Of a stretch of 64,000 nucleotides of DNA, positions 19,699-23,147 are shown one piece after another. Under the pieces are notes generated by a model. That model was not told the DNA's origin, searched no databases, and saw only the letters and a program-made list of their open reading frames with translations. This stretch comes from Glycomyces xiaoerkulensis (GTDB lineage: Bacteria > Actinomycetota > Actinomycetes > Mycobacteriales > Micromonosporaceae): assembly GCF_002798405.1 (NCBI RefSeq), contig NZ_PGGV01000038.1:1-64000 (forward strand), given 5' to 3'. The position numbers and the translations under genes were made by a program. Positions within the stretch are counted from its first letter, which is position 1, and each line of letters starts with the position of its first letter.

Positions 19699-20061
19699 CT
19701 CTCACCTCCCGGGCGGTATTCGCGGTCTCGTGCGTTACACCACGGTACGCAAGAGCCTGGCATATTTCCGACAGTTGACCGGAAGCAGCCGTCACCCTAT
19801 CGGGCGACGGGACGGTCACAATCGAGCCACAATCAGTGGGCTTGTTAGATATATGGGCTTAAATGCGTATTTTGCGGCTTCTCATCATGGTCTATTTCGC
19901 CTAATCTCTAGGCACAACCAGAACCGTAGTGGCTCGTTACTCAAGGGAGGCTCCGAAAAATACTCCCTTACGGATGAGGATCGAACGCCTCGCGACGTAC
20001 CCGCCACCGAGCCCCCCGAATCCAACGAGCTCGGCGCCACCAGGAAGGAGCACCGGCGCGC
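19699..20061. other. 363-bp divergent intergenic region with an AT-rich core
   Basis: It separates the membrane-protein gene from the sigma-factor gene. Bases ~19800-19985 are clearly AT-richer than the window average. AGGAAGGAG precedes the sigma factor's ATG at 20062. I could not place an ECF-type promoter with confidence and found no open frame with protein-like content. Confidence 0.5.
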
Positions 20062-22587
20062 ATGCCCGAAACCTTTCCCGCCGGAGATTCCCCCAGCGTC
20101 GATTCACCACACCCCGACGTCCCCGGACAGCTCTCGGACCCCGAACTGATCGCCGCCACCCGGGCCGGCGACACCACCGCCTACGCGGTCCTGTACGAGC
20201 GCCACATCCACGCCGCCCGCCGGCTCGCCCGAGTCCTCGCCCAGGACGTAGCCGCCGCCGACGACCTGGTCTCCGAGACCTTCGCCAAACTGCTCCACAC
20301 CCTCCAAGAGGGCCGAGGCCCCGAGCTGGCCTTCCGGCCCTACATGCTGCGCACCCTCCGCAACACCTTCTACGACCGGGTCAGGCGCGACAAGCGCATC
20401 GAGTACACCGACGACCTCAGCCAGCACGACTCCGGCGAGATCCAGCCCGACCCGGCGGTCGAGGGCCAGGAGCGCCGCTACGCGGCCCTCGCCTTCGGCA
20501 AGCTCCCCGAACGCTGGCAGATGGTGCTCTGGCACACCGAAGTCGAGGAGGAACCCCCGGCCAAAGTCGCCGCCATGCTCGGCATGACCGCCAACGGGGT
20601 GTCGGCACTGGCCTACCGCGCCCGCGAGAAGCTCCGCCAGAACTACCTCACCGAGCACGCCGCCGACGCCCCGCCCGACCGGTGCCGCTGGACGGTCGAC
20701 CGGCTCGGGGCGCGGGTGCGCGGCAAGCTCGCCTCCCGCGACGCCGCCCAGGTCGATGAGCACCTCGACGGCTGCGTCTCCTGCAATCTGCTGTTCGCCG
20801 AGCTCAGCGAGCTGAACTCCGGTCTGCGACTCATCCTCGCCCCGATCGTTCTGGGCGCCTCGGCCACGCCGTACCTCGCCGCCGGGGTCGCCTCGGCCGC
20901 CGGCGTCGCCGTCGGCGGCGTCCTCGGCACCCTGGCCGCGCCGTTCGTCGCCGTCGGCAACTGGATCCGGCGGATCTTCCAGCAGTTCGGCACCAAGGGC
21001 AGTACGGCGGTCGGCACCGCCGCGGCCGTGGCCGCCGCGCTCGCGGTCTTCGCGCTCACCTCCGGCGAACCCGAGGAGCAGCCGCAGGCCACCGATGACC
21101 CGCCCGCCGCCACCGAGGACGACCCGGTCGCCGAGCCCGAACCCGAGCCCGAGGACGACCCCGACGACCCGGCGCCGGAGGAGCCCGGCCCGGACGACCC
21201 GCCCGACGAACCGCCGCCCGGCGCCGATCCCGAGGACCCGGAAGACCCGCCCGACGAAACCGAGTCGGACGACCCGCCCGCCGAGGAGCCGGAGACCTAC
21301 ACCATCGCCCACGACCTCGGCAACACCGGTCTGGTCGCCGGCGGCGAGGGAGTCCTTCCGATCGTTCTGGAAGAGATGCGGTCGGGCGGCGGCTACGTGC
21401 CCTCCACCGGTCGGGCGACCGAGTCCGGCGGAACCGGCACCCCCGCCGCCTGGGGCCAGACCGCGACCTCCAATGTCAAGCTGGACGTCACGCTCCCCGA
21501 TGGCATCACGCTCGCCTCGTCCGAAGCGGCACCCGGCTGGAAGTGCGACGCCGCCGGCGCCGACGTCCGCTGCACCATCGGCGAGATGCCCGACCCGGCC
21601 GAAGCCCGGGTCCGCGTCGACATCGCCGACCGCGTCACCGGCTTCCAGACTTTCACCGTCGCCGTCGACGGGCCGGACATCAACGGGACCACCGAGCTGC
21701 GCATCGCGGTAGCGCCCGCCGGCGCCGAGGTGGGCTACGCCGGGCTCGAGGCCACCGGCGTCACCGCCTCCGGCAACACCTGGCTCACCTGCTCGCTCCC
21801 CGGCTGCCGCGAGGGCGCCGAAGGCGGCATCGGCGACCGCTACCCGATGAAGCCCTACAAACCCGGGCGCGGACACCCGCAGCCGCCCGCCGGGCAGGAC
21901 GGCGAGTCCGTGAGCGGCGCCGTCCTCGACGTCCCCGCGGGCTCGGAAGTGCTGTGGGCCGGCCTGTACTGGGCCGGGGTCGACGACGACCTCCCGAGCG
22001 ACGTCTCGCTCGCCGGACCGGACGGCTCGTGGACGGACCTCTCGGCCGGCGAGACCACCGACACCGATCCGGGCCGGCAGGCGTTCGTAGAGGTCACCGA
22101 CCTGGTCGACGGGGGCGGCGAGCACTGGGTCGCCGTCGACAACCACCGGCTCCCCTCCTCCAAGTGCAAGCCCTGGCACCCCAGGGGGCACCCGCACTGC
22201 ACCGATCCGCAATGGGCCGGCTGGTCGATCACCGTGGTCTTCGCCGAGTCCGGCGCCGAGAAGCGGGAGGTGGCCGTCTACGACGGGGCCCCGTCCGACG
22301 ACGCCGAGATCGGGGTGCGGGGGCCGGGCGAGGTCACCGTCGCCCACACGCTGTGGGGCGGATCGGCCTACAACGCAGGCGACTCGCACGGCATCGGCGG
22401 CCACAACCTGGGCCAGCCGGCGCGGTCCCGCGCCAACGGCGCGCTGAACAACCCGCACTGGTACACCTTCGGCGTGGACGTGGCCGTCCACACCGTCGAC
22501 CTGGACGAGGACGGCGTGATCCGGTACTCCCGGGGCGACGACCCGTTCATCGTGGGGGTCGTGGCCGTGGCCGGCCCGATCGATTGA
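20062..22587 (+). CDS. Membrane-anchored ECF sigma factor fused to zinc-finger anti-sigma and extracellular domains
   Basis: 841 residues in one chain. Region 2 (~25-110) has YAVLYERHIHAARRLARVLA, AADDLVSETFAKLL and FRPYMLRTLRNTFYDRVR. Region 4 (~145-200) has LAFGKLPERWQMVLWHTEVE and AAMLGMTANGVSALAYRARE. A zinc-finger anti-sigma motif follows (His234, Cys238, Cys241; HLDGCVSCN), then hydrophobic stretches at ~257-300 and ~318-336. An acidic Pro-rich linker (~338-415) leads to a ~425-residue outer part with Ig-like/DUF11-like segments and a Trp/Gly-rich region (WAGLYWAGVDDD). Sigma factors of this composite kind are known in actinobacteria (ECF52-like groups with fused anti-sigma). The stimulus and targets are unknown. 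It would work as a sensor, inhibitor and sigma factor combined; release by proteolysis is inference. Confidence 0.85.
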   Translation: MPETFPAGDSPSVDSPHPDVPGQLSDPELIAATRAGDTTAYAVLYERHIHAARRLARVLAQDVAAADDLVSETFAKLLHTLQEGRGPELAFRPYMLRTLRNTFYDRVRRDKRIEYTDDLSQHDSGEIQPDPAVEGQERRYAALAFGKLPERWQMVLWHTEVEEEPPAKVAAMLGMTANGVSALAYRAREKLRQNYLTEHAADAPPDRCRWTVDRLGARVRGKLASRDAAQVDEHLDGCVSCNLLFAELSELNSGLRLILAPIVLGASATPYLAAGVASAAGVAVGGVLGTLAAPFVAVGNWIRRIFQQFGTKGSTAVGTAAAVAAALAVFALTSGEPEEQPQATDDPPAATEDDPVAEPEPEPEDDPDDPAPEEPGPDDPPDEPPPGADPEDPEDPPDETESDDPPAEEPETYTIAHDLGNTGLVAGGEGVLPIVLEEMRSGGGYVPSTGRATESGGTGTPAAWGQTATSNVKLDVTLPDGITLASSEAAPGWKCDAAGADVRCTIGEMPDPAEARVRVDIADRVTGFQTFTVAVDGPDINGTTELRIAVAPAGAEVGYAGLEATGVTASGNTWLTCSLPGCREGAEGGIGDRYPMKPYKPGRGHPQPPAGQDGESVSGAVLDVPAGSEVLWAGLYWAGVDDDLPSDVSLAGPDGSWTDLSAGETTDTDPGRQAFVEVTDLVDGGGEHWVAVDNHRLPSSKCKPWHPRGHPHCTDPQWAGWSITVVFAESGAEKREVAVYDGAPSDDAEIGVRGPGEVTVAHTLWGGSAYNAGDSHGIGGHNLGQPARSRANGALNNPHWYTFGVDVAVHTVDLDEDGVIRYSRGDDPFIVGVVAVAGPID

Positions 22588-22646: not shown

Positions 22647-23147
22647 ATGCCGACCTCACCGCAGACCCCGCCGCGCATCCGCCCCGGCACACCGATCGCG
22701 CGCGCCTGGGACCTGTTCCGGCGGCACAGCGGCGAGCTCTTCCGCTTCGTCGGCGTCGGCGGCACCGCCTACCTGATCGATATCGGGCTGTTCAACCTCT
22801 GCCTGCTGGTGCTCGGATGGCCCGACTGGATCTCCAAGACCCTCGCGACCGCCATCGCCACCACCTGCGCCTTCCTGGGCAACCGGCACTGGACCTGGCG
22901 GGACCGGATCGGCAGCGCCGCAGCCCACCGCCAATACCTCCTGTACTTCTTCTTCAACGGCATCGGCCTGCTCATCGCCCTGGGGTGCCTGTGGGCCAAC
23001 AACGGCCTGGCGCAGGTCTGGCCGGAGCACTTCGACAATCCGCTGGCCAAGAACATCGCCGCCAACGTCGTCGGGGTCGGCATCGCCTCGGCGTTCCGCT
23101 TCTACGCCTACCGCACCTGGGTGTTCCGCCGCCGCCAGGAGGCTTAG
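22647..23147 (+). CDS. GtrA family membrane protein
   Basis: 166 residues with four membrane segments (LFRFVGVGGTAYLIDIGLFN, LATAIATTCAFLGNRHWTW, YLLYFFFNGIGLLIALGCLW and one near NIAANVVGVGIASAFRF) and the family ending FYAYRTWVFR. GtrA proteins help flip or supply lipid-linked sugars for cell-surface polysaccharide. It follows the sigma factor by 59 bp and could be co-transcribed. A hairpin terminator lies 39 bp downstream. Confidence 0.87.
   Translation: MPTSPQTPPRIRPGTPIARAWDLFRRHSGELFRFVGVGGTAYLIDIGLFNLCLLVLGWPDWISKTLATAIATTCAFLGNRHWTWRDRIGSAAAHRQYLLYFFFNGIGLLIALGCLWANNGLAQVWPEHFDNPLAKNIAANVVGVGIASAFRFYAYRTWVFRRRQEA

Follow-up and report, generated by a model that had tools for sequence, protein, structure and literature searches.

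ECF sigma factors that carry a zinc finger and a membrane part fused in the same chain are an already known kind of regulator, best studied in the ECF52 protein SCO4117 of Streptomyces coelicolor. According to the available text of PMC8999054, the actinobacterial groups ECF48, ECF52 and ECF53 are put, by their domain structure, in a class controlled by proteolysis, for which IutY represents the experimental case. For SCO4117 proteolysis is proposed, and the available portions of PMC8999054 and PMC5826349 describe its truncated sigma domain alone as modulating development and as accompanying raised SCO4117 expression.

Here we describe a composite ECF sigma factor gene of Glycomyces xiaoerkulensis, whose genome assembly (GCF_002798405.1) comprises 4.37 Mb in 40 contigs. 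The gene occupies positions 20062..22587 on the + strand of the window, that is, the whole stretch of 64,000 nucleotides analysed (contig NZ_PGGV01000038.1, positions 1 to 64,000). Its ATG start and product of 841 aa are supported by the ORF call, by Pfam and NCBIfam matches and by conservation. A first-pass annotation had recognised a composite ECF of the known actinobacterial, ECF52-like kind, endowed with its own zinc-finger anti-sigma domain, and this assignment is borne out by the domain order and by the available description of SCO4117. The Glycomyces subgroup may already carry an ECF number.

Sigma regions, zinc finger and membrane part

In the Pfam scan of the 841-aa protein, Sigma70_r2 (PF04542) matched residues 44-112 (20191..20397, +) at 7.6e-12, above its cut-off, while Sigma70_r4_2 (PF08281) matched residues 143-191 (20488..20634, +) at 3.7e-5, its 23.7 bits falling slightly short of the cut-off of 25.7. 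The NCBIfam model TIGR02937 (sigma70-ECF) was passed with 67.8 bits against a cut-off of 42.9. The combination found, regions 2 and 4 without region 3, is that by which ECF sigma factors are recognised, and the predicted folds of both regions agree with it.

The next domain, zf-HC2 (PF13490), spans residues 208-241 (20683..20784, +), with an E-value of 8e-9 and 35.9 bits against a cut-off of 22.2. Its ligands read C208...H234-x3-C238-x2-C241, the CHCC set within a zf-HC2-type domain that characterises the class I anti-sigma zinc fingers. Directly behind the finger, many family members share a motif of roughly LR..LAP..LG..YL. We infer that the fused finger inhibits the sigma part, against which it would pack; the model of the cytoplasmic part is of low confidence (pTM 0.38). 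The opposite strand also has an open frame, of 795 aa, which was considered as the true gene and rejected as a GC-rich shadow, since the + strand protein is what relatives conserve across genera.

Hydropathy analysis placed the hydrophobic maxima of the protein at residues 258-276, 280-298 and 315-333. Residues 258-298 (20833..20955, +), where model confidence is low, form one or more hydrophobic segments, possibly a hairpin, and residues 315-333 (21004..21060, +) the last transmembrane helix, preceded by basic and followed by acidic residues. The number of hydrophobic peaks varies from two to five among relatives, so that the true number of transmembrane helices is uncertain. The helix is followed by an acidic, Pro-rich linker (residues 336-411, 21067..21294, +) containing 35 D/E and 0 K/R. 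In Glycomyces, the charges around the last helix follow the positive-inside pattern; in Catellatospora and some others the segment after it is not acidic (+1 or +2). Pfam, NCBIfam and hydropathy agree with the first-pass reading of a single 841-residue frame which combines sigma regions 2 and 4, zinc finger, hydrophobic segments, acidic Pro-rich linker and outer region.

The outer region and its occurrence in other proteins

The last ~430 residues of the chain, for which structure prediction had been proposed as a check, gave a confident and mostly beta model. By structure comparison of this model, residues 411-553 adopt an Ig-like fold; the corresponding DUF11-like domain (21292..21720, +) holds the Cys495/Cys504 pair. 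The second domain (21727..22584, +), also mostly beta, holds the Cys577/Cys582 pair and is DUF3344-like, as supported by the A1 profile (the alignment of the Glycomyces C-terminal outer domain), by hhalign and by the confident model.

These names are to be read as likenesses. In the Pfam scan, DUF11 (PF01345) scored 17.6 bits on the 841-aa protein, below the gathering cut-off of 24.6 that is passed by the relatives L086 (55.3) and L161 (25.2). PF11824 (DUF3344) gave no match in the protein's own outer domain at E up to 1, and weak matches in 4 of the 20 rows of the A1 alignment (best 2.3e-4); L086 reached 21.7 bits, below the cut-off of 27.2. Because the gathering cut-off of PF11824 is not reached, we use only the label DUF3344-like. 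No NCBIfam family matched the 37 outer-region rows at E up to 0.01. Within those 37 rows of long-form relatives, 21 columns are invariant, gaps apart, and both Cys pairs are invariant in the alignment. A PDB sequence search returned a single match, at E 0.023, and a PDB structure search with the two-domain model gave query-normalised TM-scores of at most 0.23 among the 50 matches listed. The VIA-align rows covered mainly residues 1-143 of that model, and from the structure search we neither claim nor exclude any fold for the C-terminal outer domain.

The A1 alignment was scanned against the genomes of 84,980 species, yielding 63 loci. A sigma factor lies in the same frame in 39 of them and is missing from 24, six of which are 5'-open; among these six, L051, L073 and L085 are probably cut ECF genes. 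In 17 of the 18 non-ECF ORFs with a complete 5' end, a scan of the first 100 residues or so shows a strongly hydrophobic, signal-like segment close to the N-terminus, the exception being L093. An hhalign comparison of the ECF outer domain with 17 of these 18 secreted, adhesin-like proteins, a set that excludes the six 5'-open ORFs and L079 (which has no A1 profile hit), gave an E-value of 7.8e-39 over 269 columns. Pfam scans of four non-ECF proteins found 11 DUF11 stretches in L075, DUF11 and cadherin-like repeats in L080, a PKD domain and a type IX secretion signal in L078, and DUF7933 with GEVED in L084.

By sequence comparison, the outer region is thus related to a known, uncharacterised surface module which rides on an Ig-like domain. 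The region pointed out in the first-pass annotation is real and confidently folded, but not wholly impossible to name. The suggestion of a new sensor module is not supported in the form given there: the module itself is known, though uncharacterised, and our literature search found no description of a DUF11/DUF3344-like outer region of this kind or of its use as a sigma-factor sensor.

The comparison also puts the residues C-terminal to the last transmembrane helix outside the cell, in accordance with the topology first proposed, because the module stands behind signal-like N-termini elsewhere, its two Cys pairs are invariant and the last helix is positive-inside. The strongest evidence for an extracellular C-terminus comes from the sequences of the non-ECF proteins which carry the module behind such N-termini.

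Conservation and spread of the sigma, finger and membrane parts

In all 16 same-genus genomes, our own included, the sigma and outer parts lie in one frame with no stops (in three the match falls in two pieces, with a longer frame), and for this reason the one-chain fusion is not attributable to chance. In the outer-domain scan, the 21 loci at the head of the listing (L032-L052), 20 from Glycomyces and one from an actinomycete MAG, are 59-69 percent identical to this domain. Mean column identity is 72 percent in the sigma/zinc-finger half (19 rows) against 48 percent in the last outer domain (20 rows).

At the family level, 150 genomes were searched with the full-length protein, and 89 of them gave matches. 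In a class-wide sample, the sigma and zinc-finger profile was matched at E up to 1e-40 in 135 of 394 genomes and 33 of 138 genera. Of the plasmid records, 16 matched, in each case over less than 80 percent of the protein; the 15 listed are all confined to the sigma/finger part. Among the 92 family members that were compared, 91 retain the CHCC ligands (those of L088 were confirmed separately and are counted here), the exception being L204, which has no finger. By their tails, these 92 sigma-bearing proteins fall into three groups: 59 carry the A1 domain, 27 have a different tail and six are short.

To appreciate the variety of the tails, we considered 40 members drawn from diverse genomes, chosen for variety and not at random. 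The A1 profile was found in nine of them (L142, L143, L146, L147, L150-L154). The Pfam scan of 20 of the 40 detected, above cut-off, NPCBM (L125, 1.1e-27), DUF642 (L129), a ricin-type lectin domain (L130, L135), three tandem Ig domains with a ricin-type lectin (L132, actinobacterial), Big_6 (L156, L158) and DUF11 (L161). Nine members from other genera (L136-L139, L141, L144, L145, L148, L149) have an outer region with neither a Pfam match nor an A1 hit, and these regions are candidates for undescribed surface modules.

Short and interrupted relatives

Five proteins of the same family (L162, L163, L164, L204, L218) are devoid of the membrane and outer parts. Specifically, four of them keep the zinc finger and end within 25 residues of the profile's zinc-finger end, and the chain of L204 (genome G008) ends before the finger, with a GtrA gene still behind it. 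In a midpoint-rooted FastTree phylogeny, shown without support values, all five are nested inside the long-form clade, which indicates that they lost the membrane and outer parts. Another short form (L140) lies elsewhere in the tree, and three more were found (L255, L256, L257), with a GtrA gene behind L255 and L256 and no GtrA match at L257. Altogether, eight short forms of the family were examined, and seven of them have GtrA behind them. In some relatives, seen as one-TGA rows of the whole-protein family search, the sigma frame or the match stops ahead of the zinc finger.

The first-pass annotation had named a consistent split of homologues into separate sigma and membrane genes as the outcome contrary to its reading. 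No such two-gene split was found among the relatives examined, apart from a frame break in L249; where the outer part is absent, it is lost. In L249 (genome G112, another genus), the sigma and finger parts and the outer part occupy overlapping, different frames (279-1211 and 329-2656), and the break, which falls in the hydrophobic stretch, may be either natural or a sequencing fault. L254 is a whole long form in one frame, while two genes (L251 with L252, and L253 with L250; genomes G019 and G077) reach the ends of contigs, and are either truncated by the assembly or impossible to judge. The S. clavuligerus orthologue of SCO4117 is described with a stop ahead of the outer domain, which the authors, in the available text of PMC5826349, suspect to be an error. 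Splitting of the composite gene is, at most, an exception.

Upstream promoter-like site and neighbouring genes

The usual ECF promoter layout consists of AAC, 16 bases and CGTT. A site of this type, CAACY-N14-TCGTTA (AAC-N16-CGTT), maps at 19915..19939 (+), upstream of the sigma gene, and is present in all 21 upstream regions of the Glycomyces alignment. In the genome as a whole, the exact pattern of 25 bases has a single copy, which stands ahead of the ECF gene. In each of 22 Glycomyces genomes searched, it was found in one to three copies, a copy being assigned to the front of the ECF gene by position in 16 and by a matching spacer in 6; the reversed pattern, used as control, was absent from 20 of the 22. 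The strict pattern was found in none of 19 upstream regions of the other-genus relatives examined, and in 21 of 2334 stretches of 600 bases taken from these loci, the promoters themselves being part of that background. A looser AAC-N15-17-CGT[TC] is common, occurring in 26 of 40 upstream regions versus 367 of the 2334 stretches. One-mismatch sites in the genome number 33 versus a background of 33, and so indicate no regulon beyond the gene itself. The site fits autoregulation of the ECF gene, but it might equally be used by another ECF factor.

A second exact CAACY-N14-TCGTTA site was considered as a target and discarded: it recurs in the genus, but its conserved spacer looks coding. It lies at about position 1500 of L221, L227, L241 and others, in many Glycomyces and with a nearly fixed spacer, and overlaps what may be a short, leader-like peptide (...RACPWL), close to a frame that reads EIGEIPHLADFT; it is probably unrelated to the sigma factor. 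Two more blocks conserved in Glycomyces, ATTTCCGACAG and one resembling GGTCACAATC-CATCACAATT, are present at 19760-19850 of the window and may be associated with the divergent gene or with a different regulator.

Directly downstream of the sigma gene lies a gene for a GtrA-family membrane protein (22647..23147, +; PF04138, 5.5e-22), followed by bPH_2, helix-turn-helix, biotin ligase and carboxyltransferase genes. Upstream, in divergent orientation, are a gene with a weak DUF3040 match and a methyltransferase gene (PF02390), and then an HD-domain phosphohydrolase gene. Of 40 loci, 33 have a GtrA gene directly 3' of the ECF gene; in L162 the two genes overlap. Tandem GtrA pairs are seen behind the sigma gene in L162 (1107-2323) and L163 (1150-2359). 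The role proposed for GtrA proteins, in lipid-linked sugar transfer, would fit a wall-glycan theme. Among 15 family genomes without this sigma factor, a clear GtrA is present in 14 (E 5.6e-29 or better), and at all 15 loci a sigma gene is absent within 1.5 kb. This weakens the case for GtrA as an obligate partner and, because GtrA is kept where the sigma gene is missing, leaves the link between the two at most suggestive.

Possible modes of activation

The reading to which we give somewhat more credence than doubt is that of a single-chain receptor, in which the sigma factor would be released from its own inhibitor by proteolysis after binding at the surface. Specifically, cytoplasmic regions 2 and 4 would be restrained by the anti-sigma zinc finger that is fused C-terminally to them, and the membrane anchor and acidic Pro-rich linker would place the Ig-like and DUF3344-like domains within the cell wall or outside it. 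The outer part, on binding a ligand at the surface (a glycan or protein of the wall or the environment), would trigger cleavage outside and then within the membrane, the latter by a site-2 protease of the kind found in the genome. The zinc finger would then be lost, and the free sigma factor would transcribe its targets, its own gene included. The domains, their fusion and conservation, the kinship of the outer module and the promoter-like site are observed, whereas we infer ligand binding, proteolytic release and autoregulation; cleavage to free the sigma part is plausible. Three loci of the genome carry Peptidase_M50 genes, the best of them (431 aa, 161 bits) on contig C20 at 83603-84685, and they say little, because such proteases are found in 14 of 14 control genomes too.

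No cleavage site or site-1 protease was identified for the 841-aa protein, which counts against proteolytic release; the missing cleavage site would suit a factor that acts while tethered, the outer signal shifting the conformation of membrane part and zinc finger so as to expose regions 2 and 4 with no cleavage. The LR..LAP..LG..YL-type motif of many members would fit such a conformational relay. On the other hand, the precedents for fused membrane ECFs point to proteolysis, shown for IutY and proposed for SCO4117 in the available text of PMC8999054 and PMC5826349, and a membrane-held holoenzyme would need to reach promoters from there; we regard tethered action as improbable. The short relatives with sigma part and finger (L162, L163, L164, L218) speak against a model built on an outer signal, as their unit can exist without one. 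Together with the retention of CHCC in 91 of 92 proteins, of the finger in four of the five family relatives without membrane and outer parts, and with the wide variation of the outer modules, they leave some room for a cytoplasmic signal, with the CHCC finger sensing redox or zinc and the outer part serving as a mere anchor or adhesin. We consider this rather unlikely, as the long forms keep an extensive outer region in which 21 columns are invariant across 37 rows, gaps apart, and this would hardly be expected of an anchor. That the protein is essentially an adhesin with a vestigial sigma part was already disfavoured and appears very improbable: its outer domain is indeed common to adhesin-like proteins, but the sigma/zinc-finger half is the better conserved one (72 versus 48 percent), and short relatives retain the sigma part and drop the outer one, the reverse of what this explanation predicts.

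With proteolytic release as our preferred reading, we put forward, tentatively and with more doubt, a wider proposal: that these proteins form an actinobacterial modular class of one-protein receptors, in which a constant sigma/anti-sigma/membrane chassis bears exchangeable outer modules of adhesin or lectin type. The Glycomyces form, with its DUF3344-like adhesin head, might then be a contact or wall-glycan sensor that turns attachment to a surface directly into transcription without a partner protein. If this is right, a transcription factor has an adhesin-type module as its sensor within one and the same chain, so that contact with a surface would reach gene expression by a minimal route. 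With outer modules of such variety on a single chassis, these proteins would serve as natural chimeras with which to search for ligands and to design actinobacterial receptors, and the relatives without a membrane part would allow a direct test of how the fused zinc finger acts. A role would also be suggested for DUF3344-like domains, to which none is seen assigned in the available text of the two papers naming them, PMC9210967 being one.

Comparison with known systems

The outer domain recalls, by description, a domain cluster of the fibrillar-adhesin survey in PMC9210967. In the available text of that survey, the N-terminal cluster 23, which overlaps DUF3344, is of ambiguous function and has a P_proprotein domain as its best structural hit. 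The setting is the same as that of the N-terminal domains of large secreted proteins homologous to our outer domain. However, the cluster 23 domain heads a secreted, fibre-like protein, whereas the present one ends a sigma factor.

As for the sigma factors, the actinobacterial groups ECF48 and ECF53, as described in the available text of PMC8999054, share with our protein a fused zinc finger, one or two transmembrane helices and an extension of up to 400 residues. According to the same text, IutY (ECF243) of Pseudomonas putida also has a membrane anti-sigma part fused C-terminally to the sigma factor and is activated by regulated intramembrane proteolysis; unlike the role considered here, its own is iron cell-surface signalling.

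The closest system is ECF52. SCO4117, in its available description, has sigma regions 2 and 4, zinc finger, transmembrane part, Pro-rich stretch and an outer binding domain in one actinobacterial chain, and the Glycomyces protein likewise shows the zinc finger, a transmembrane part (by hydropathy only), a Pro-rich stretch after the sigma part and an actinobacterial host. Its sigma and zinc-finger parts are 43 percent identical to those of L125 and 42 percent to those of the latter's near relative L127. The NPCBM form of L125 agrees with what the available text of PMC5826349 says of SCO4117, from which its Streptomyces origin is deduced. The two systems part at the neighbouring gene, which is GtrA in Glycomyces and atrA in Streptomyces (PMC5826349, available text), and at the outer end. 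There, NPCBM gave no Pfam match in the 841-aa protein at E up to 10, against 1.1e-27 in L125: SCO4117 is described as ending in NPCBM, whereas the Glycomyces protein ends in the Ig-like and DUF3344-like domains.
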